From: a virus
Reading direction: 5' to 3' (one strand)
DNA length: 64,000 bases
Virus record (IMG/VR): IMGVR_UViG_3300022744_000020
Location: 186,001-250,000 of that record
Positions 718 through 63,643 of the stretch are shown here, piece after piece. The first letter of the stretch is position 1; the number at the start of each line of letters is the position of its first letter. The notes under the pieces were generated by a model, which had not been told where the DNA came from, searched no databases, and saw nothing but the letters and a program-made list of their open reading frames with translations. The position numbers and the translations under genes are program-made.

Positions 718-748
718 ATCAAGTGTCAGACAACCAACCCCTTTGATC

Positions 749-1747
749 ATGGAACAATACCTCGACATTCTTCGACACATCCGAGAAAACGGCAAGCCTT
801 CACCGGATCGAACTGGAACGGGCCGTACTCGAATCTTCGGCAGCATGCAGCGCTACAACCTACAAGACGGGTTCCCGATACTCACCTCGAAACAAACGAT
901 GTTCAAGGGAGCCATCGCTGAACTCCTTTGGTTTCTGGAGGGTTCAACCAACGTCAATCGACTCAAAGAGATTGCTGGCGGCAACTTGAAATTTTGGGAT
1001 CGGTGGGCAACCGAAACGGGTGATCTGGGCCCGATCTACGGTACTCAATGGACTCGCTTTTCCTCCATCGTTCACGATGGAAACGGCGAGGCCCATTTCA
1101 AAAAGATCAATCAGATCGATGAGCTGATCAAGAATCTCAACGAGCGTCCTTTCTCGGCGCGACACATCGTCACGGCCTGGAATCCGGCGGACTTGCCGGA
1201 TGAATCCAAGAGCCCTCAGGAAAATGTCCGTGACGGAAAGATGGCGTTGGCAGCCTGTCATTGCCTCTTTCAGTTCTTTGTGGCTGAGGCAGACGGAGAT
1301 TCCCGACTTCGCCATCTGAGCGCGATGTATCCGAATGGTTTGGAGATCAGCGATCGCCAATACGATCTGTCGAACGAGCCCGGACTGCATCGCCTGTGTG
1401 ACGACTATCAGGTACCGAAGCTTCAACTGTCGTGTTTGTTGTTCCAGCGCAGCTCCGACAAATTCGTCGGAGAGCCGGTGAACATCGTCAGTTATTCCCT
1501 CCTGACGCACATGGTGGCTCAGGTCACTGGAATGATTGTGGGGGATTTCGTCCACATGGGTGGTGATGTCCATATCTATCACGATCAGCTTGAAGGGGTC
1601 GACGAACTGCTGAGCCGAACCCCTGGAAAACTTCCCAAGCTGAAGCTCAATCAGGGTGTGAAATCTCTGAAAGATTTCAAGATGGAGGACTTTGAGTTGG
1701 TGGGCTACGATCCCCAGCCGGCAATTGCGGCGCCTGTTTCGGTTTAA
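749..1747 (+). CDS. thyA: Thymidylate synthase
   Basis: Makes dTMP from dUMP with methylene-tetrahydrofolate as carbon donor and reductant. The sequence shows RTGTGR near the N-terminus (dUMP phosphate site), LLWFLEGSTNV, the catalytic Cys-His (C170-H171, in ALAACH where most enzymes have APCH), QRSSD, GDVHIYHDQ and a YDPQPAIAAPVSV C-terminus. At 332 residues it is longer than E. coli ThyA (264), mainly because of an insert of about 45 residues after the catalytic strand (around 181-225) and a smaller one near 107-120. The ATG at 749 is chosen because it starts the conserved EQYLDILRHI helix; an in-frame TTG lies two codons upstream. No clear Shine-Dalgarno sequence precedes it. It works with nrdAB downstream and the DHFR gene at 63 kb. 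Confidence 0.95.
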   Translation: MEQYLDILRHIRENGKPSPDRTGTGRTRIFGSMQRYNLQDGFPILTSKQTMFKGAIAELLWFLEGSTNVNRLKEIAGGNLKFWDRWATETGDLGPIYGTQWTRFSSIVHDGNGEAHFKKINQIDELIKNLNERPFSARHIVTAWNPADLPDESKSPQENVRDGKMALAACHCLFQFFVAEADGDSRLRHLSAMYPNGLEISDRQYDLSNEPGLHRLCDDYQVPKLQLSCLLFQRSSDKFVGEPVNIVSYSLLTHMVAQVTGMIVGDFVHMGGDVHIYHDQLEGVDELLSRTPGKLPKLKLNQGVKSLKDFKMEDFELVGYDPQPAIAAPVSV

Positions 1748-8075: not shown

Positions 8076-8113
8076 CTGACAGCCACCAGCCATGAAAGGC
8101 TGGTGGCTGTCAG
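8076..8113. terminator. Bidirectional terminator between convergent units
   Basis: A perfect 16-bp stem (8076-8091 with 8098-8113) with the 6-base loop ATGAAA is followed on the plus strand by a T-rich stretch. It separates the plus-strand paralogue unit from the minus-strand endolysin unit. Confidence 0.9.
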
Positions 8114-10988: not shown

Positions 10989-11030
10989 GTCTAGGTTCTG
11001 ACAAATAGTATGCGATAGAAGAAGCATAAA

Positions 11031-11070
11031 AAAATGAAGCCGCTGGTCAAAGGCGGCTTCATTTTTGCAG
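11031..11070 (+). terminator. Intrinsic terminator
   Basis: A 13-bp stem AAAATGAAGCCGC/GCGGCTTCATTTT (11031-11043 with 11053-11065) ends in a T-run. It closes the 8817-10988 unit. Confidence 0.88.
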
Positions 11071-11154
11071 CTCACGTCGTGGGGGATATTACCCAGAGCA
11101 ATAAGTGATCGCAAAGATCCGGGCTCTTTCTTTTTTGTCTATTCAGGACCTGAT

Positions 11155-12897
11155 ATGTTGAAATTAAAGTATCTGCTCTTAGGACTGGTCTTTGCGACAT
11201 TGTCCGCTTGCGGTGGTGGGGATGTGGAAGAAGCTCCCGTCAGCGCTCCACCAAGTGAATTTGTGGGTCCAGTGAGTCCCACACCGCCAGTCGTGGTGCC
11301 AGTTGATCCCACGCCGGTCAATCCAACTCCGACTCCAACGCCTATCACACCCGCCCCAGTCACCCCTACTCCCACACCAGTGATCACACCACCGGTAGTG
11401 GTTCCGGAACCCGTCCCCGTTGTGACCCCTCCTCCGGTCATTCCAGCGAACACCAAATGTTTGCCTGGGGTTGGATCCGACTATGTTGTCGGTGCTGGCC
11501 AACCTTATGGCTCCGCAGACTTGGTTCCGTGGGAAAGCTTGAAGGCCGGTGACAGCGTTCGCTTCACCTATTCAAGCTCACCATACAAAGCCAAATTCAT
11601 CGTGACTGGATTTGGTACTTCGGCTGCACCCATCACAATTTGCGGCATTCCTGGGCCGAATGGTGAAAGACCCATCATCGAAGGCGCGGGTGCTGTGACT
11701 CGCGCTAATCTGAACACGACCTACGGAAACTCGGAAGAGACCTTTGTTGCTCGAAGCGAACGCTCGATCATCGAAATCACGAAACCCAGCTATGGAACGT
11801 GGGATTCGTTCCCGAGCTATGTGGTGATCAAAGGTCTGAACATCCGTAATTTCAATAAGGGGGATACCTTCACCGATGCACGTGGTGCGTCACGGGTAGC
11901 TGCTCAGTTCAGTGCCTGTGTTTGGGTAGACCGTGGTCAAAATTTGGAATTCTCCGACAACGAGGTTTCGAATTGCTCGATGGCGATGTTCACGAAGTCC
12001 ACGAACGACGGGACCTTTGCGATCACCACGAATCTGAAAATCGCAGGAAACCACATGTGGGGACACGGTGTCGTCGGTTCAGACCGCGAACACACGATCT
12101 ATACCTCTGGATCGAACATTCTCTACGAGTTCAACCATTTCGGCCCTCTGAAATCCGGTGCCTTGGGTAACGCGATCAAAGATCGTTCGGCTGGTTTGAT
12201 GGTGCGATACAACTACATCGAAGAAGGAGCACACTCAATCGACATGGTGGAAGCGGAAGACTGGCCGGACATTGCCACGAAGCTGACTTCTTATCGCAGC
12301 ACTTATGTCTATGGCAACGTGATGAAGAAGACAGGGGACTCGGGGCCTTTCTTCCATTACGGCGGTGATCACTTCGGTGCCCCCGCAGGTGCAAACTGGG
12401 GAGAAACATTGTTCCGTCGAGGCACCCTGTACTTCTGGAACAACACAGTGATTGCCACTGGCGTAGAGGCTCGACTGTTCAAGCTTTCTACCACCCTGGA
12501 GACAGCTCAGATTTGGAACAATGTGTTCTACGGAACCGTCCCGACTGGGGCTTTCTTCCTTCGGCAAAATGAGAGCGACAATGTCTCGGCAAGTTATACT
12601 CGCGCTGGCAATCTGGTGTTTGGTGTTAACTGGGTTCGCGCGGACTATGCTGACAGCGACATCTATCACCCGATCCCAGGAACGATCAGTGGGATGAGTA
12701 ACTTCATCACTGGGACGCTCTCCCCGATTGAGTTGTCTACTTATCGCCCGGTTGCTGGGTCGTCCGTGATCGACAAAGCCCAAGCTAATCTGTCCGGCGT
12801 CAGCGGCATCTCGGTGAACTATCAATTCGTTGGTGGGCAGCCACAGAGTCGGACCACGACGGGTGCTGGTGTGGATCTTGGAGCTATTGAGTATTGA
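11155..12897 (+). CDS. Surface lipoprotein with Pro-rich linker and beta-helix domain
   Basis: The 580-residue product starts with a lipoprotein signal (hydrophobic core, lipobox LSAC, C19), so it should be lipidated and anchored in the host outer membrane. Residues about 27-98 are a Pro/Thr/Val-rich linker with PTPTPTP repeats. The rest is Gly/Asn-rich with recurring short strands (VVIKGLNIRNF, LEFSDNEVSNCS, LKIAGNHMWG, LYFWNNTVIATG), the pattern of right-handed parallel beta-helix proteins such as polysaccharide lyases. The C-terminus (GSSVIDKAQANLSG...GVDLGAIEY) looks like the 'choice-of-anchor Q' type end of bacterial surface proteins. The ATG at 11155 has AGGACC upstream. A bacterial origin is likely. 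It could degrade or mask surface glycan, or block superinfection; neither is shown. Confidence 0.82.
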   Translation: MLKLKYLLLGLVFATLSACGGGDVEEAPVSAPPSEFVGPVSPTPPVVVPVDPTPVNPTPTPTPITPAPVTPTPTPVITPPVVVPEPVPVVTPPPVIPANTKCLPGVGSDYVVGAGQPYGSADLVPWESLKAGDSVRFTYSSSPYKAKFIVTGFGTSAAPITICGIPGPNGERPIIEGAGAVTRANLNTTYGNSEETFVARSERSIIEITKPSYGTWDSFPSYVVIKGLNIRNFNKGDTFTDARGASRVAAQFSACVWVDRGQNLEFSDNEVSNCSMAMFTKSTNDGTFAITTNLKIAGNHMWGHGVVGSDREHTIYTSGSNILYEFNHFGPLKSGALGNAIKDRSAGLMVRYNYIEEGAHSIDMVEAEDWPDIATKLTSYRSTYVYGNVMKKTGDSGPFFHYGGDHFGAPAGANWGETLFRRGTLYFWNNTVIATGVEARLFKLSTTLETAQIWNNVFYGTVPTGAFFLRQNESDNVSASYTRAGNLVFGVNWVRADYADSDIYHPIPGTISGMSNFITGTLSPIELSTYRPVAGSSVIDKAQANLSGVSGISVNYQFVGGQPQSRTTTGAGVDLGAIEY

Positions 12898-12914
12898 ACT
12901 CAAAATAGTGCAAA

Positions 12915-12945
12915 GGACAGGGCTTTCGGGCCCTGTCCTTTTTTT
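12915..12945 (+). terminator. Intrinsic terminator after lipoprotein gene
   Basis: A 9-bp stem GGACAGGGC/GCCCTGTCC (12915-12923 with 12930-12938), loop TTTCGG, followed by seven T. Confidence 0.9.
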
Positions 12946-18720: not shown

Positions 18721-21700
18721 TTAAAGCAGTTTTGCTTTTACAACGCGCAAGTCAGCGTTGAGCCTTTCTACTTTGGTGGCTACCAAAGAACTCGATCCTT
18801 GGAACTCCTTGATCGAGTAATCCATACTGTCAAGAGTTTTGGCAAAGCTAGTTACCTCACCCGACTGCGCCAATTGAACTTCTTGTCCGTAAAACAAATA
18901 AGCCAGCCCGTTATCACCATACTCCAAAACAATCGGCCGAGCCTGCGTTCTCATCAACTCTACACCAGCGGCGTTTTTGCGGATGAAATAAGCGCTCTTG
19001 TTGACATTTGCACCCACATTGAATTCGTGGTCACCACTGCCCGTCAGTGTGGCGATCACTTGAGAATTTTCAGCCAGTACGACGTCCACAGTGTCGGTAA
19101 CCGCAGGACCCTGGAGATAAATTCTCGCATCTCCGATGTTCCATGCGCCCGGGTTAATGTTGGTTTTCAATGAGATCAAAGAGATCGATCTGCGACTACT
19201 GTAGCCAGCGCCCGGCAGAACCGTCAGTCTGAACCTCATCTGGAACCCGACATTCACTCCAGGAAGAACCAACGCACTCAGGTTTTCTTTGGTCAGCTTG
19301 GCCCAATTACTCCAAAGCTCATTCGGTAGTCTCCAAGAGAACTCAGCCAGAACGCCAGGGTCCAGATAGTCTCCTGCGTTTTGAGCCAAATTTGCGACTA
19401 CTTCATAATCTTTACCGCCTACCAGTGCCGAAGAATCTAACTTCAAACTCACCGAGTTCGGAAAGCCGAGATAGAAGTTCGAGGTCCATCCTCCGTTACT
19501 TGCGCTGGCTTGAAGTCCTGCACTTGCTGCATTCAGCGCTGCCGCAATGGTTCCCGCTCCAGCGTTGTACGGGATATCTGCTGTCGTGGCAATCGGCGCT
19601 CCGTATTGGTCATAGACCGAGAGTTTGAAAGTTCCAGAGGTCGGGGCAATCGCCGACACTAGAATGTGGTTCTTACTAGCTCCCGAATTTATCAGACCGA
19701 AGAGCAGAGGCCCCGCATTGACAAACGAGGTAACGCCATGAAACAAATACGGAACAGTTAGTAGCGCCGTGTCCCCCTCATTGGGAAGATAAAGAAGGCC
19801 AATCTGGTCAAACCAACACGTGCCTGAAATGATGGCTTCCGGCTCTCCTGAACACATTGGTCCGACGGTAATGTGTCCAGTGGTTGGTGAAAGCCCCATG
19901 TCAGCCCAATTACCTGCGACATAGTGAGTCGCTCCCGAGTGCGCTCTGGCAACCCCGCTTGGTGGGCAACTGACCAGATTGATTTGAGCGTTTTTGGAGA
20001 TCTTTCCCGCTGCGCTACCCCAAGGAGTAAACCCTGAAGCATTGGTAGCGAAGACCTTTCTCAGAATCAAATCCGTACCCAAATAATTTCCGGGCTCGTC
20101 CACAATAGAGGATCCAATGTTGTTTGTGAGCGAAATCCGGTCTACCTTCAACCCTGAACCCGAAGCATAAACCGCATTAGTGGCAAACCCACGACCATCA
20201 ATGTTAACGTCGGTGACGGTGGTGTTTTTAGAAGCTTGCAGTGAATAGATGATGTTTTGGCGATGCGGAGACGGAGCAGCCAAGGTAACACCAATCACTT
20301 TGGCATCTTCGCAATAGGCAACGCCCAAGCCACTGGGAACGTTAGCCAATAACGAACCAACTTCATTGGTTGGCTGATCAGCCAACTTTACATCAAAGAA
20401 TCGAACACCCGGACAACCACGTGCTTCAACATATCCTCCAGCAAACGTGAGGTTTCGAATGACCGTGTCTTTAGAAAGAGACTGAAAGATAGCCAGCGCC
20501 ATTGTTGCTCCGACATCCAAGGAGCGATCGAATGCGTAGCAAATAGTCGTCAGATCTTCAAGCGCTTTCACGTTTGGCAAATACTCAATCTGGAGTCTGG
20601 TACTTCCAGGGTTCTTACCGCAATTGAAAAGTCTCTTCAGTGAAACGTTCCCGTAGCAGCTCGACACGTACAAAAGCATTTGGTCGTTGACACGGTTTGT
20701 GAAGACTACTCCGTCGATATCAACATCGCCAGTCGTGCCGACGATGTAGGCACACGTCAGCCCGACCTGCCAAAGCTTCAGATACGTGAAAGCCACAGCA
20801 CGAAGATAAATTCTCGAGGTAAAACAGACCCACTCGGCGTCCATCGTTCCGGCAGGCTCCAACCAGATACAACTCATTCGGTCGCGATTTCGCTCCAGCG
20901 GATAGAGTCTCGGATTGGATTTTCCCTGGAGTTGAGTATTATCAATGGTCATTCTCATGGCTTTGGTATATTTTCCCCCGTTGGTGATGATGCCAAAGTT
21001 CGTCACACCTCCGTTGTAGCTGACGGCAAATGAGCTCGGACCCATACTCGGCAGTGCCGACAAAGCATCGGCCACCGCCTGTGGTGTCGTATTCCAAGCC
21101 AAAGCCGGAGTCGTTCCTAATGGTCCTGATTCATCTTCCAGAGAGATCGTGTAGGTTCCTCCGTTGATGATATTTTGGCCATTGTAGATTAACCACTCGT
21201 ACGTGTAATCAATCGGGAAGCGATTGGTGATGTAGATGTTGGGGATTCTAACTTTGCACCCGGTTGGAACCACGCAGCCGTTGATGCCATTTCCAGTGCT
21301 GAACACTCTGTCCGTGTGGTGCCAGAAGAAGAACTTCCCAGCCTCCCACGTACCCCCAACAAATCTATTTTTCTTTGTAGCGCCGTAGCAAATACCCGGA
21401 CCGACATCGTCGTTGTATTTGGGATCGATCGGTGCAATACCCCAAGGCTTGTATTTTCCGCTACCTGGAGCCGTCTCCACCTCCACGTAAGTGATCTCCG
21501 GAATTACGCCTCCGAAGAGCTGCTTGAAATCCCAAGTCTTTTCGGTTCCGTCACCAATACCGATCTCCATCGGAGTTCCACGGATGACCAATTTTCCTTG
21601 ACCCGTGGCCTTGATGTGCTGACCCATGTCATCCAGCACAATCACGATTGGTGTCGTGGCGCTTTCATTTTTTATCAGAATGGTTCCTCGACTCACGCAT

Positions 21701-21831
21701 TGAATCGATCCGGTATTCACCGTCGTACTCTGATCTATCGTGAGTACGGCGTTATTGATGATGTTGAATCCCTCGCCTTTGGCGTAGGTAACATCTTTCA
21801 AATTGGTGTTGGTTGCAACGACGATGGTCAT
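18721..21831 (-). CDS. Tail fibre or tailspike protein, 1036 aa
   Basis: A long Gly/Ser/Thr/Asn-rich, beta-rich protein expected to form a trimeric host-binding fibre or spike. The middle region has repeated short strands (VDIDGVVFTNRV, VRFFDVKLAD, TTVTDVNIDGRGF, LKVDRISLTNN) typical of a beta-helix. Two related segments of about 75 residues, near 225-305 and 730-805, share T(Y/F)..(I/L)S, an AL.A helix, NGG and a final D..L.G, suggesting a duplicated domain. The last ~60 residues are helical (SFAKTLDSMDYSIKEF...VERLNADLRVVKAKLL), a likely coiled coil. It is encoded right after the gene at 21835, with only 3 bases between. No self-cleaving chaperone domain is visible. Confidence 0.8.
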   Translation of the reverse strand: MTIVVATNTNLKDVTYAKGEGFNIINNAVLTIDQSTTVNTGSIQCVSRGTILIKNESATTPIVIVLDDMGQHIKATGQGKLVIRGTPMEIGIGDGTEKTWDFKQLFGGVIPEITYVEVETAPGSGKYKPWGIAPIDPKYNDDVGPGICYGATKKNRFVGGTWEAGKFFFWHHTDRVFSTGNGINGCVVPTGCKVRIPNIYITNRFPIDYTYEWLIYNGQNIINGGTYTISLEDESGPLGTTPALAWNTTPQAVADALSALPSMGPSSFAVSYNGGVTNFGIITNGGKYTKAMRMTIDNTQLQGKSNPRLYPLERNRDRMSCIWLEPAGTMDAEWVCFTSRIYLRAVAFTYLKLWQVGLTCAYIVGTTGDVDIDGVVFTNRVNDQMLLYVSSCYGNVSLKRLFNCGKNPGSTRLQIEYLPNVKALEDLTTICYAFDRSLDVGATMALAIFQSLSKDTVIRNLTFAGGYVEARGCPGVRFFDVKLADQPTNEVGSLLANVPSGLGVAYCEDAKVIGVTLAAPSPHRQNIIYSLQASKNTTVTDVNIDGRGFATNAVYASGSGLKVDRISLTNNIGSSIVDEPGNYLGTDLILRKVFATNASGFTPWGSAAGKISKNAQINLVSCPPSGVARAHSGATHYVAGNWADMGLSPTTGHITVGPMCSGEPEAIISGTCWFDQIGLLYLPNEGDTALLTVPYLFHGVTSFVNAGPLLFGLINSGASKNHILVSAIAPTSGTFKLSVYDQYGAPIATTADIPYNAGAGTIAAALNAASAGLQASASNGGWTSNFYLGFPNSVSLKLDSSALVGGKDYEVVANLAQNAGDYLDPGVLAEFSWRLPNELWSNWAKLTKENLSALVLPGVNVGFQMRFRLTVLPGAGYSSRRSISLISLKTNINPGAWNIGDARIYLQGPAVTDTVDVVLAENSQVIATLTGSGDHEFNVGANVNKSAYFIRKNAAGVELMRTQARPIVLEYGDNGLAYLFYGQEVQLAQSGEVTSFAKTLDSMDYSIKEFQGSSSLVATKVERLNADLRVVKAKLL

Positions 21832-21834
21832 TTC

Positions 21835-22929
21835 TTAAGCCTGCTGGGCAGTTCCGTATTGGAGGGTGGCTCTGGTATTCCACGCCATAGACGCGTTGGT
21901 CATGGTCGGGTTGTTGATGGGTCCGGCGTAGTCGAACAAAACCCCTTCTCCGACGCTAGAAGCTCTGGCAACGCACCACGGAATGCGTGTGGTGGGACCC
22001 CCGATCTTCAGAGCGTACGTGATACCTGGGGTTTCGTCATTACTGATCGTAGTAACCAACCCATCTAACGGAGAATGGTAATGTGTCTTAAGTCCGGTAT
22101 CTAAGGCCACCAACTTCTGATTAATTAGCTCTATATCTGCCAAATCAAAACCCAACTCTACTTTGGAGATGGGTCGAAACTTCTTTGTGATTGGTTTGGA
22201 GTGATCTGCTGTCGGAGGAAGTTCACCGTTCTTTACGGCCCAACCAGTAAAGAAATTCTTGTTTGAAGCAGCCGAGTTGCAATGGGCATTGATCACATAC
22301 CGATTGAAATAGATGGCCGAGCCCCAATCAATCGCAAGCACCAACTTTCCGTTTACAAACCCACCAGACAACCCTGCGGGCTCCAGAGTTCCCCGACTAA
22401 TATAGCTGGGATTATAGAGTAGGTTTATCCCGAGTGGATCGGCGTAGGTGTAGAAAGAAATGGACAGGTCAGTGAACCCCCCGGGACCGTACGGGTAGCC
22501 AATCAAATCCAGACGAACCATAACGGCACTATTGACCGGAATGTTGGTTTCAATGTACTGGTATCTTTGAACTTCGGCACCAGCAAATTGAACAACTCCT
22601 GGAAATAATCCAGTGTCTCCAGGCTTTACTACGCTCGACAACAAATTGGCTAAACTGATGGTAACGACACTTCCATCTGATTTTGTCAGGGTTAGAGTTT
22701 GGTCAGTTGGAACATATGCTCCGGAAGCGATGGTCGGACCAGTCCCAGCCGGCGCTGTCGTCCCTGAGCCTGCTGCGGGTGCAGAAGTTGCTGTTCCAAA
22801 CAAGTGGACAACATCACTGTATTTAATCTTGGCTAGATTGCCATTAACCAACACAACGGCATAATCGTCAGCCGTTATGTCGGTAAGGGTAGATGTTCTT
22901 TCGAACATCGATTTGAAAGCGTCGCTCAT
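21835..22929 (-). CDS. Tail fibre protein, 364 aa
   Basis: Begins MSDAFKSMFERTSTLTDITADDYAVVLVNGNLAKIKYSDV, an N-terminal layout common in phage fibre proteins. A low-complexity Ala/Gly/Thr/Pro stretch follows (around 48-70). The rest is a beta-rich body with many aromatics (YGPGGFTDLSISFYTYADP). It is likely an adsorption or fibre component made together with the 1036-residue protein. On the minus strand AGAGGATCACTCGA precedes the ATG at 22929. Confidence 0.78.
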   Translation of the reverse strand: MSDAFKSMFERTSTLTDITADDYAVVLVNGNLAKIKYSDVVHLFGTATSAPAAGSGTTAPAGTGPTIASGAYVPTDQTLTLTKSDGSVVTISLANLLSSVVKPGDTGLFPGVVQFAGAEVQRYQYIETNIPVNSAVMVRLDLIGYPYGPGGFTDLSISFYTYADPLGINLLYNPSYISRGTLEPAGLSGGFVNGKLVLAIDWGSAIYFNRYVINAHCNSAASNKNFFTGWAVKNGELPPTADHSKPITKKFRPISKVELGFDLADIELINQKLVALDTGLKTHYHSPLDGLVTTISNDETPGITYALKIGGPTTRIPWCVARASSVGEGVLFDYAGPINNPTMTNASMAWNTRATLQYGTAQQA

Positions 22930-23012
22930 TCGAGTGATCCTCTTCTAAAGTAGAATAAAAAGTCTGAATCATACCGTTGGTATTTTTATTTAGCTTGAAA
23001 TTTTTTAAAGCG

Positions 23013-23024
23013 ATACATCATAAC
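23013..23024 (+). promoter_or_regulatory. Putative phage promoter
   Basis: ATACATCATAAC preceded by AAATTTTTTAAAGCG. GCGATACATCAT is identical to the site at 45690. It lies 34 bases before the ATG at 23058 and in the divergent gap next to the tail-fibre genes. Confidence 0.55.
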
Positions 23025-23057
23025 AAAGACCTCCACCACCAAAAGGAATTCATTCTC

Positions 23058-23570
23058 ATGGAAACTCCCAACCTTGTCCAGCGCGCCACGATCAAAGTGC
23101 CTTTGGCTCCTGTCGGTTCTCGACTCAATGAGAGCGTCAATCTGGATTACATGGGTAATGCATACTTCGAGTTTGGTGCTTTGCCCAAATCGTTGCGCCG
23201 GATCGAACAGAAAGCCCATCTCTTTCGCATGAGGCGGCTTGAAGACATCAAGAGCGACACTGGGTTCACCCTGCGCGTGTACAGTTATCTCAACGACCGG
23301 GAGTTCGAACAATACCACAAATGCCTGCGCATGATGCGTGGGTTAGAAAAAGCGAACTTCAACTTAGAGGAGTCTACCCACTTTGAAGTCATGAAGAATG
23401 GAGGATTCTCTTTTGTCTCCGGTACCAACTTCTGGTGGGACATCAGAAACGATGTGATGTGGAGCTTCAACAAGACCTTCATGTCGCGCTTACCTAAGCA
23501 ACTCCAAGCGTCGTTCGATTACATGAACGAGAACTCCCCAGAAAACAAACTGCCGAAACTGATCGATTGA
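23058..23570 (+). CDS. Phage protein with LDYMGxAxFEFGALPKSL motif
   Basis: The 170-residue product carries NLDYMGNAYFEFGALPKSLRRI near residues 29-50. I recall this signature from uncharacterised proteins of many unrelated phages; its function is unknown to me. A basic helical part follows. The ATG at 23058 is preceded by AAAAGGAATTCATTCTC. It heads a unit with the genes at 23588 and 23835. Confidence 0.8.
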   Translation: METPNLVQRATIKVPLAPVGSRLNESVNLDYMGNAYFEFGALPKSLRRIEQKAHLFRMRRLEDIKSDTGFTLRVYSYLNDREFEQYHKCLRMMRGLEKANFNLEESTHFEVMKNGGFSFVSGTNFWWDIRNDVMWSFNKTFMSRLPKQLQASFDYMNENSPENKLPKLID

Positions 23571-38263: not shown

Positions 38264-38671
38264 ATGAATCGTTTCATCTGCCTCATCGTTCTGTTTCTCT
38301 CCCTCGGTGCCCAGGCGCAAGTCGTACCGCCAGCAAATCTGAGCATCGATCCGTATGCGGATCGAATCACGGCGTGGCTGAAGAAAAATTCGCGCGTCTA
38401 CCAGTGCGCTGATTCAGCCGTGAACCGACTGGTGGAAGATCGCAACGCGATTGTGACCCCTCAGGAATATGGGCGGATCGTCACGATTTGCTCGTCCTTC
38501 CCAGCGGCCAATCCAGGGTCGGCGATGCTTGGGGAGGAGCTCGACTACATGTGGTACGTGAAACCGCATGACCAAAAGCAACTCGCCGAGAAGAAGGCCG
38601 GTCGTCGTTGGCAAGACGTCGACGGGTACCTTCACTTTCCAGACGGCACCATCAGCAGTTCTCCCATGTAA
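38264..38671 (+). CDS. Secreted protein of unknown function, 135 aa
   Basis: The ATG at 38264 has TAGGAG upstream. A Sec signal peptide is clear (MNRFICLIVLFLSLGAQAQ, cleavage after AQA). The mature part is about 117 residues with two Cys that could pair (YQCADS, VTICSS). It should act in the periplasm. First of a run of envelope-directed genes. Confidence 0.8.
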   Translation: MNRFICLIVLFLSLGAQAQVVPPANLSIDPYADRITAWLKKNSRVYQCADSAVNRLVEDRNAIVTPQEYGRIVTICSSFPAANPGSAMLGEELDYMWYVKPHDQKQLAEKKAGRRWQDVDGYLHFPDGTISSSPM

Positions 38672-63055: not shown

Positions 63056-63073
63056 CCATTGAAGAGAAACAAA

Positions 63074-63643
63074 ATGAAAGCCCCTGTCCCCTACATGAAG
63101 GCCATCTGGGCCGAGTCTGCCAACGGCATCATCGGAAATCAAGGAGCTCTTCCATGGAAGTCCAGTGAGGACATGAAGATTTTCAAAGAGAAGACGGCCG
63201 GCAGTACCGTCATCATGGGTCGAAAGACCTGGGATTCTCTGCCGATCCAGCCGCTCCCTGGTCGTGAAAACATCATCGTCACGAGGGACTTCTTCAACGT
63301 GAACCCCCCAGACGTTCATGGTTTTTCCACTAACCAACTCGATCGGGCTTTCTTTGATGATTACCCCAAGGGAATTCATCAAAGCCTCATGGCGCGGACG
63401 ATTGAGAATCGTCGACCGATCTGGGTCATTGGTGGATCTCAGATCTTCAAAGAGTTCTGGCCTTACATCGCCGAGCTTCACATCACCATCTTCCCGGATC
63501 TGATCGTGAATGGAGACACGTCCTCCCCTCTGCTGGATCGGTCGGACGAACTTCCGATGCATTGGGAAATGAAGGAGAGCGAGTGCCGGTTCATCAAGAC
63601 TGATCGAGAGAGCCTGGATCACCTCGTCTTCGTGCGTAAGTGA
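63074..63643 (+). CDS. folA: Dihydrofolate reductase
   Basis: Regenerates tetrahydrofolate used up by ThyA, with NADPH. The 189-residue product shows the DHFR pattern: MKAIWAESANGIIGNQGALPW (substrate loop), VIMGRKTWDSLP (NADPH loop), RENIIVTRD and IWVIGGSQIFKEF. It is slightly longer than E. coli FolA (159). The ATG at 63074 is preceded by GAAGAGAAACAAA. It sits 61 kb from thyA but serves the same pathway. Confidence 0.95.
   Translation: MKAPVPYMKAIWAESANGIIGNQGALPWKSSEDMKIFKEKTAGSTVIMGRKTWDSLPIQPLPGRENIIVTRDFFNVNPPDVHGFSTNQLDRAFFDDYPKGIHQSLMARTIENRRPIWVIGGSQIFKEFWPYIAELHITIFPDLIVNGDTSSPLLDRSDELPMHWEMKESECRFIKTDRESLDHLVFVRK

Follow-up and report, generated by a model that had tools for sequence, protein, structure and literature searches.

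Both depolymerases and host-derived genes are already known in phages, and the usual phage depolymerase is a virion part that aids entry. Sphaerotilus and Leptothrix are freshwater bacteria that surround themselves with a polysaccharide sheath. With respect to the polymers of sheathed bacteria, the enzyme DssA of Paenibacillus koleovorans cuts galactosaminic bonds in the sheath polymer of Sphaerotilus natans (PMC5613140), and the Sphaerotilus/Leptothrix sheath itself is described as not well understood (PMC13386937). PL9-annotated genes have been reported from the genome of L. ochracea, with a higher copy number in other Leptothrix and Sphaerotilus (PMC11412304), and a thiopeptidoglycan-lyase annotation appears among the viral genes of a paddy-soil virome (PMC8985318). 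Here we describe a jumbo phage gene that is a candidate for a lipid-anchored, host-orthologous exopolysaccharide or sheath enzyme. In the open-access literature (subscription journals being outside the scope of the search) we found no case of a lipid-anchored, host-orthologous sheath enzyme in a jumbo phage.

Layout of the Lipoprotein Gene

The stretch of DNA analyzed here (64,000 bases; the window) covers bases 186001–250000 of a 270,383-base viral record. The multi-subunit RNA polymerases, head proteins and tail sheath encoded by this record mark it as a phiKZ-like jumbo phage, and the closest relative of one RNA polymerase subunit is found in Burkholderia phage FLC9 (34%). The gene and its accompanying signals, in window coordinates, are as follows.

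11155..12897, plus strand: lipoprotein gene, 580 aa (ATG at 11155, stop at 12897); orthologue of a Sphaerotilus/Leptothrix lipoprotein and probable exopolysaccharide/sheath depolymerase
11145..11148, plus strand: Shine–Dalgarno-like AGGA, 6 bases 5′ of the ATG (sequence read)
11155..11211, plus strand: predicted type II signal peptide; lipobox LSAC, with Cys19 encoded at 11209–11211 and Gly at +2 (translation; host orthologues alike)
11236..11448, plus strand: Pro/Thr-rich linker, residues 28–98 (translation)
11449..12894, plus strand: predicted right-handed beta-helix body, residues 99–580, 482 aa (AlphaFold2, Foldseek)
12178..12189, plus strand: invariant K342-D343-R344-S345 motif, candidate active-site residues (alignment A1)
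11030..11066, plus strand: intrinsic terminator for the gene upstream (stem of 15 bp, −22.3 kcal/mol, z −5.6)
12912..12941, plus strand: intrinsic terminator of the lipoprotein gene (13-bp stem, T-run, −22.8 kcal/mol, z −5.1)

The N-terminus of the 580-aa protein reads MLKLKYLLLGLVFATLSAC-GGGD and contains a positively charged start, a hydrophobic stretch and the lipobox LSAC with Cys19, which are the elements of a bacterial type II signal. On this reading the protein is very probably a lipoprotein. The original prediction had named both a lipobox and a Pro/Thr linker with PTPTPTP repeats, and each is present: the lipobox is followed by Gly at +2, and the linker (residues 28–98) includes NPTPTPTPITP. 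In enteric bacteria, Gly at this position allows outer-membrane transport under the Lol rule. The surface-protein C-terminus that had also been proposed, GVDLGAIEY, corresponds to the conserved family ending DLGA-E rather than to a sorting signal. A simple scan of the examined parts of the 270-kb record revealed no second lipobox ORF; the only other exported candidate in such a scan was a 135-aa protein (window positions 38264–38668) whose signal peptide is of type I (MNRFICLIVLFLSLGAQAQ).

Predicted Fold and Comparison with Known Enzymes

An AlphaFold2 model built with an alignment of 37 homologues predicts a right-handed beta-helix (mean pLDDT 94.2, pTM 0.94), in agreement with the beta-helix body originally proposed; a model generated without homologues (pLDDT 32) was set aside. 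The top Foldseek matches among solved structures were GH136 lacto-N-biosidases (E 1.7e-9), and further matches included a rhamnogalacturonan lyase, alginate lyases (6kfn and several PL6 enzymes), the pectate lyase Pel9A, chondroitinase B and Vibrio RbmB. The glycan-cleaving beta-helix families represented are GH136, PL9, PL6, PL31 and RbmB, with the rhamnogalacturonan lyase structure being one that we take to be filed under PL9. TM-scores against known enzymes were 0.4–0.5. As modeled, the fold falls among glycan-cleaving beta-helices, without a single family being named.

The GH136 lacto-N-biosidases LnbX and BsaX provide the best fold match, yet the phage protein is only 14% identical to them at TM 0.4–0.5, and the GH136 enzyme 6kqs gave a weak profile match to its N-terminal part (E 0.037). 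PL6 enzymes (chondroitinase B/alginate lyase) match in fold (E ~1e-5 to 1e-4), without a sequence match. Vibrio RbmB likewise shares the beta-helix (Foldseek E 9e-5 to 7e-4), but its identity to the phage protein is ~10%; to our knowledge, bacterial exopolysaccharide-degrading enzymes such as RbmB are not lipoproteins of this layout. DssA (thiopeptidoglycan lyase, PL9_4) has the Sphaerotilus sheath polymer as an expected target in common with the phage protein, and structures of PL9 enzymes were retrieved by Foldseek; filed under PL9 and cleaving GalN–GlcA bonds, it was kept as a lead. Membership in PL9 (Pel9A-like) was itself rejected: there was no Pfam match, and the likeness is at fold level only. 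The PL9 model PF22842 retrieved nothing in Sphaerotilus/Leptothrix, and its P. koleovorans matches are genes other than the relatives of the phage lipoprotein. Searches of the Pfam, PHROGs and NCBIfam profile libraries with the phage protein gave no significant match, and weak matches to an RnfD profile were dismissed as chance.

Phage tail-spike depolymerases are a further point of comparison, being phage-encoded beta-helices presumed to cut host surface polysaccharide. The phage lipoprotein differs in carrying a signal for export and lipid anchoring, and in having bacterial orthologues, rather than virion attachment. Assignment to the virion tail-spike class was rejected on the type II signal, the absence of any other domain, and neighbors without tail-gene matches. 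Overall, sequence and model make it quite likely that the phage lipoprotein is carbohydrate-active.

Orthology with Lipoproteins of Sheath-Forming Bacteria

We scanned 84,980 species genomes with the degenerate motif GN[AG]-hydrophobic-KDR[ST]AG, whose outline agrees with the phage protein, and obtained 35 loci, most of which proved by tblastn to be true relatives. The closest relatives, 52–57% identical across the whole body, are orthologues from Sphaerotilus natans, S. sulfidivorans, Leptothrix sp. C29 and related bins, and remoter ones (~30–39%) occur in Acidobacteria, Planctomycetes, Myxococcales, Verrucomicrobia and Paenibacillus koleovorans. Among plasmids, tblastn found one distant Herpetosiphon protein and nothing closer.

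Lipobox and linker are both present in all four Sphaerotilus/Leptothrix orthologues examined at the N-terminus, which supports the earlier claim of a surface lipoprotein as far as sequence comparison allows. Specifically, the lipoprotein paralogues of Sphaerotilus/Leptothrix, for example that of S. natans ATCC 13338 (L021:2053-3900, minus strand), resemble the phage protein in body identity (52–57%), lipobox and C-terminus, and their linkers are Pro/Thr- or Ser/Pro-rich, like that of the phage protein. The phage copy is unlike them in being single, in its phage-like codons and in its long branch. Maximum-likelihood analysis places the phage protein as sister to one Sphaerotilus/Leptothrix paralogue clade (support 100/98), and it shares with this lipoprotein beta-helix clade the grouping, the lipobox, the linker and the DLGA-E end. 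Its end branch is long (0.72), and long branches can be misplaced in a tree; this length also indicates that the transfer was not recent. Judged from these sequences, homology and orthology of the phage protein with the Sphaerotilus/Leptothrix lipoprotein are practically certain.

With respect to composition, GC3 of the phage gene is 0.57 (0.59 for the body) versus 0.56 ± 0.07 for genes of the window, and that of the S. natans orthologue is 0.97. Of 44 columns that are ≥95% invariant among the other homologues, 43 are unchanged in the phage copy, including H313, Y316, N327, K342-D343-R344-S345, R351, N353, D363, G403-G404-D405 and R421. A phage-like composition in a gene whose near-invariant columns and export signal are nonetheless intact points to long maintenance under purifying selection. 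The same observations speak against an accidental host gene without phage function. Such a gene would be expected to be common to no close phage relative, as was the case in the collections searched, but a composition this fully phage-like, with 43 of 44 columns and the export signal kept, renders it very improbable.

The gene's standing as a moron, proposed on account of two flanking terminators, is at best tentative. Both terminators are real (z −5.6 and −5.1), and the gene lies alone between them. On the other side are its phage-like GC3, the frequency of terminators and the lack of an empty-site relative. A crude scan of the window gave 15 terminator-like hairpin and T-run hits, and because hairpin terminators are this frequent, the pair alone is no mark of a moron. 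Searches of the viral collection by way of the flanking genes or the phage RNA polymerase found no close relative of either and none with an empty site, and a sigma-70 scan revealed no clear promoter for the lipoprotein gene. Elsewhere in the window, a 16-bp perfect intergenic hairpin (8076–8113) has a terminator score on both strands.

A search for CRISPR or DNA links between the phage and Sphaerotilus, carried out with two 20-kb pieces, revealed neither a CRISPR match nor any wider DNA similarity, the lipoprotein gene being the only substantial match; shorter DNA matches involve, for example, thyA/folA. In the phage, thymidylate synthase (window 743–1747) and dihydrofolate reductase (63059–63643) are ~62 kb apart, and in two genomes of the Sphaerotilus genus (G211 and G212) the short matches to these genes are separated by no more than 0.5 kb.

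Exopolysaccharide Clusters and the Sheath

In three genomes of an Aquabacterium MAG-containing group (G253, G231 and G244), a family homologue lies within an exopolysaccharide cluster. The cluster comprises a Wzy_C polymerase/ligase, a conserved 392-aa protein, glycosyltransferases (GT2), an EpsC-like acetyltransferase (not found in G244 by local search), the lipoprotein, a Gfo/Idh dehydrogenase, an epimerase and GT4. Counterparts of this cluster lie ~3 kb from tandem arrays of the family in S. natans and ~5 kb from them in Leptothrix C29, and in G065 the epimerase is found at a distance of ~4 kb, where the examined stretch ends. At the same cut-off, the family was present in 9 of 13 Sphaerotilus-genus genomes versus 2 of 198 genomes sampled elsewhere in the bacterial family, and carriers in the genus have 2–6 copies, most of them 3–6. 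The corresponding P value of 2e-11 overstates independence because the sampled genomes are related.

The S. natans array (G002:C12:130056-135721; L021) consists of three paralogues in tandem, of which one is a predicted lipoprotein and another has a type I signal peptide. It adjoins a LytTR-type response regulator, with the exopolysaccharide cluster 3 kb away, and is a candidate sheath-remodeling locus.

The sheath degrader P. koleovorans contains three domains of the phage lipoprotein family, whereas 2 of 104 other genomes of its bacterial family have one domain each, at a clearly lower score. Two of its proteins, a long one with two family domains (G001:C62:25234-28608; L046) and a 743-aa one with a single family domain and FN3 (G001:C5:118053-119408; L023), are candidates for a part in sheath degradation, besides PL9-like genes on C11 and C42. 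The PL9-annotated genes of Leptothrix/Sphaerotilus (PMC11412304) may be the same as the relatives described here.

These associations bear on the suggestion, made in the original prediction, that the protein might digest glycan. Orthologous lipoproteins in sheath bacteria, proximity to exopolysaccharide clusters and glycan-cleaving folds all favor it, as judged from sequence and model. The nearby biosynthesis cluster and the 2–6 copies per genome would also fit a non-enzymatic glycan-binding or sheath-assembly lipoprotein that organizes or anchors polymer, the phage copy then strengthening or altering the infected-cell coat. Such a role is less easily squared with invariant polar residues (H313, Y316, K342, D343, R344, R351, D363 and D405), with enzymes as the nearest folds, and with copies in a sheath degrader, and we regard it as improbable. 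If the protein is instead a depolymerase, its substrate may be a general exopolysaccharide, since bacteria of the Aquabacterium group, which are not noted sheath formers, also carry the family.

Related Domains in Other Phages

Neither tblastn of annotated phages with the lipoprotein nor a scan of the viral collection with its single sequence revealed a relative, and motif matches at viral loci L003-L005 and L095 were rejected as chance. Three phage contigs do encode the domain, with most of the invariant residues kept. The first (L041), which is 200 kb long and carries T4-type genes, encodes an exported beta-helix (L041:7365-9464) with a 45% identical body, a cleavable-type signal peptide, FN3 and a (PAPT)n linker; the next gene (L041:10237-10836) encodes a 199-aa secreted protein with no family assignment. 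The other two are siphophage-type contigs, in which the domain occurs without a signal peptide, in one case among tail-type genes (L042:613-2559) and in the other within a 1,264-aa Ig-domain protein (L043:6714-10493). The latter two proteins are likely virion depolymerases of the same family. The use of the domain by phages in both virion-type and exported settings fits a depolymerase.

These siphophage-type copies, in a tail-type neighborhood and in an Ig-domain protein, also lend some weight to the idea that the jumbo phage protein is itself carried in or on the particle and breaks down the sheath during entry. Its lipobox, linker and orthology to host lipoproteins argue otherwise, as do the signal peptide of the T4-like copy and the absence of a virion-attachment domain, and a virion-associated role is therefore quite improbable. 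Elsewhere in the jumbo phage genome, a mostly plus-strand region contains two large genes on the minus strand, with products of 1036 and 364 aa (window 18721–22929); the 1036-aa product has weak matches to Ig-like tail profiles and is perhaps a fiber. A 966-aa protein that combines four FG-GAP repeats with an Ig-like domain (L065:170-3067; record 20170-23067) is possibly a surface-binding virion protein.

Proposed Function

Homology, orthology to one host paralogue clade, the lipoprotein layout, the predicted fold and conservation form the basis of our proposal. From these we infer enzymatic activity, substrate, surface location, timing and benefit, as well as a sheathed or related Burkholderiales host. 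Specifically, the infected cell would produce the lipoprotein, export it through Sec and lipidate it at Cys19. Once delivered to the outer membrane, the lipoprotein would extend its beta-helix outward on the Pro/Thr linker to cleave the host's own exopolysaccharide or sheath polymer. Loosening of the sheath or matrix would allow jumbo virions to leave and spread, which we consider the likeliest benefit. Action on host exopolysaccharide or sheath is probable, and a role in virion release is a possibility that we place somewhat below even. As a whole, the explanation of the protein as a host-derived, outer-membrane-anchored exopolysaccharide/sheath depolymerase of the infected cell, in a sheathed or related Burkholderiales host, has in our judgment a somewhat better than even chance of being correct.

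In terms of benefit, the original prediction had pointed to a block of superinfection. The lipoprotein might achieve this by covering the infected cell or by trimming a glycan that serves as receptor, leaving competing phages unable to attach. Phage lipoproteins with an exclusion role are known in other systems, and a gene standing alone between terminators would suit one. The exclusion lipoproteins that we know of, by comparison, are small and are not orthologues of host exopolysaccharide-cluster proteins, and the phage copy has kept enzyme-like invariant residues. We consider exclusion or receptor masking unlikely as the main role; it is compatible with a depolymerase if glycan trimming also removes receptors.

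A candidate depolymerase anchored on the infected cell and orthologous to a host surface protein points to exit from the sheath or matrix. We tentatively suggest that a phiKZ-like phage infecting sheathed bacteria captured a host sheath/exopolysaccharide depolymerase with its lipid anchor as an exit enzyme, and that the unrelated T4-like phage did likewise with a secreted form. If this is true, the infected cell would open its own sheath from within, and large virions would not be trapped. The lipoprotein family offers a handle on the genes that shape the Sphaerotilus/Leptothrix sheath, and the phage lipoprotein a handle on how phages cope with the sheathed filamentous bacteria that cause activated-sludge bulking.
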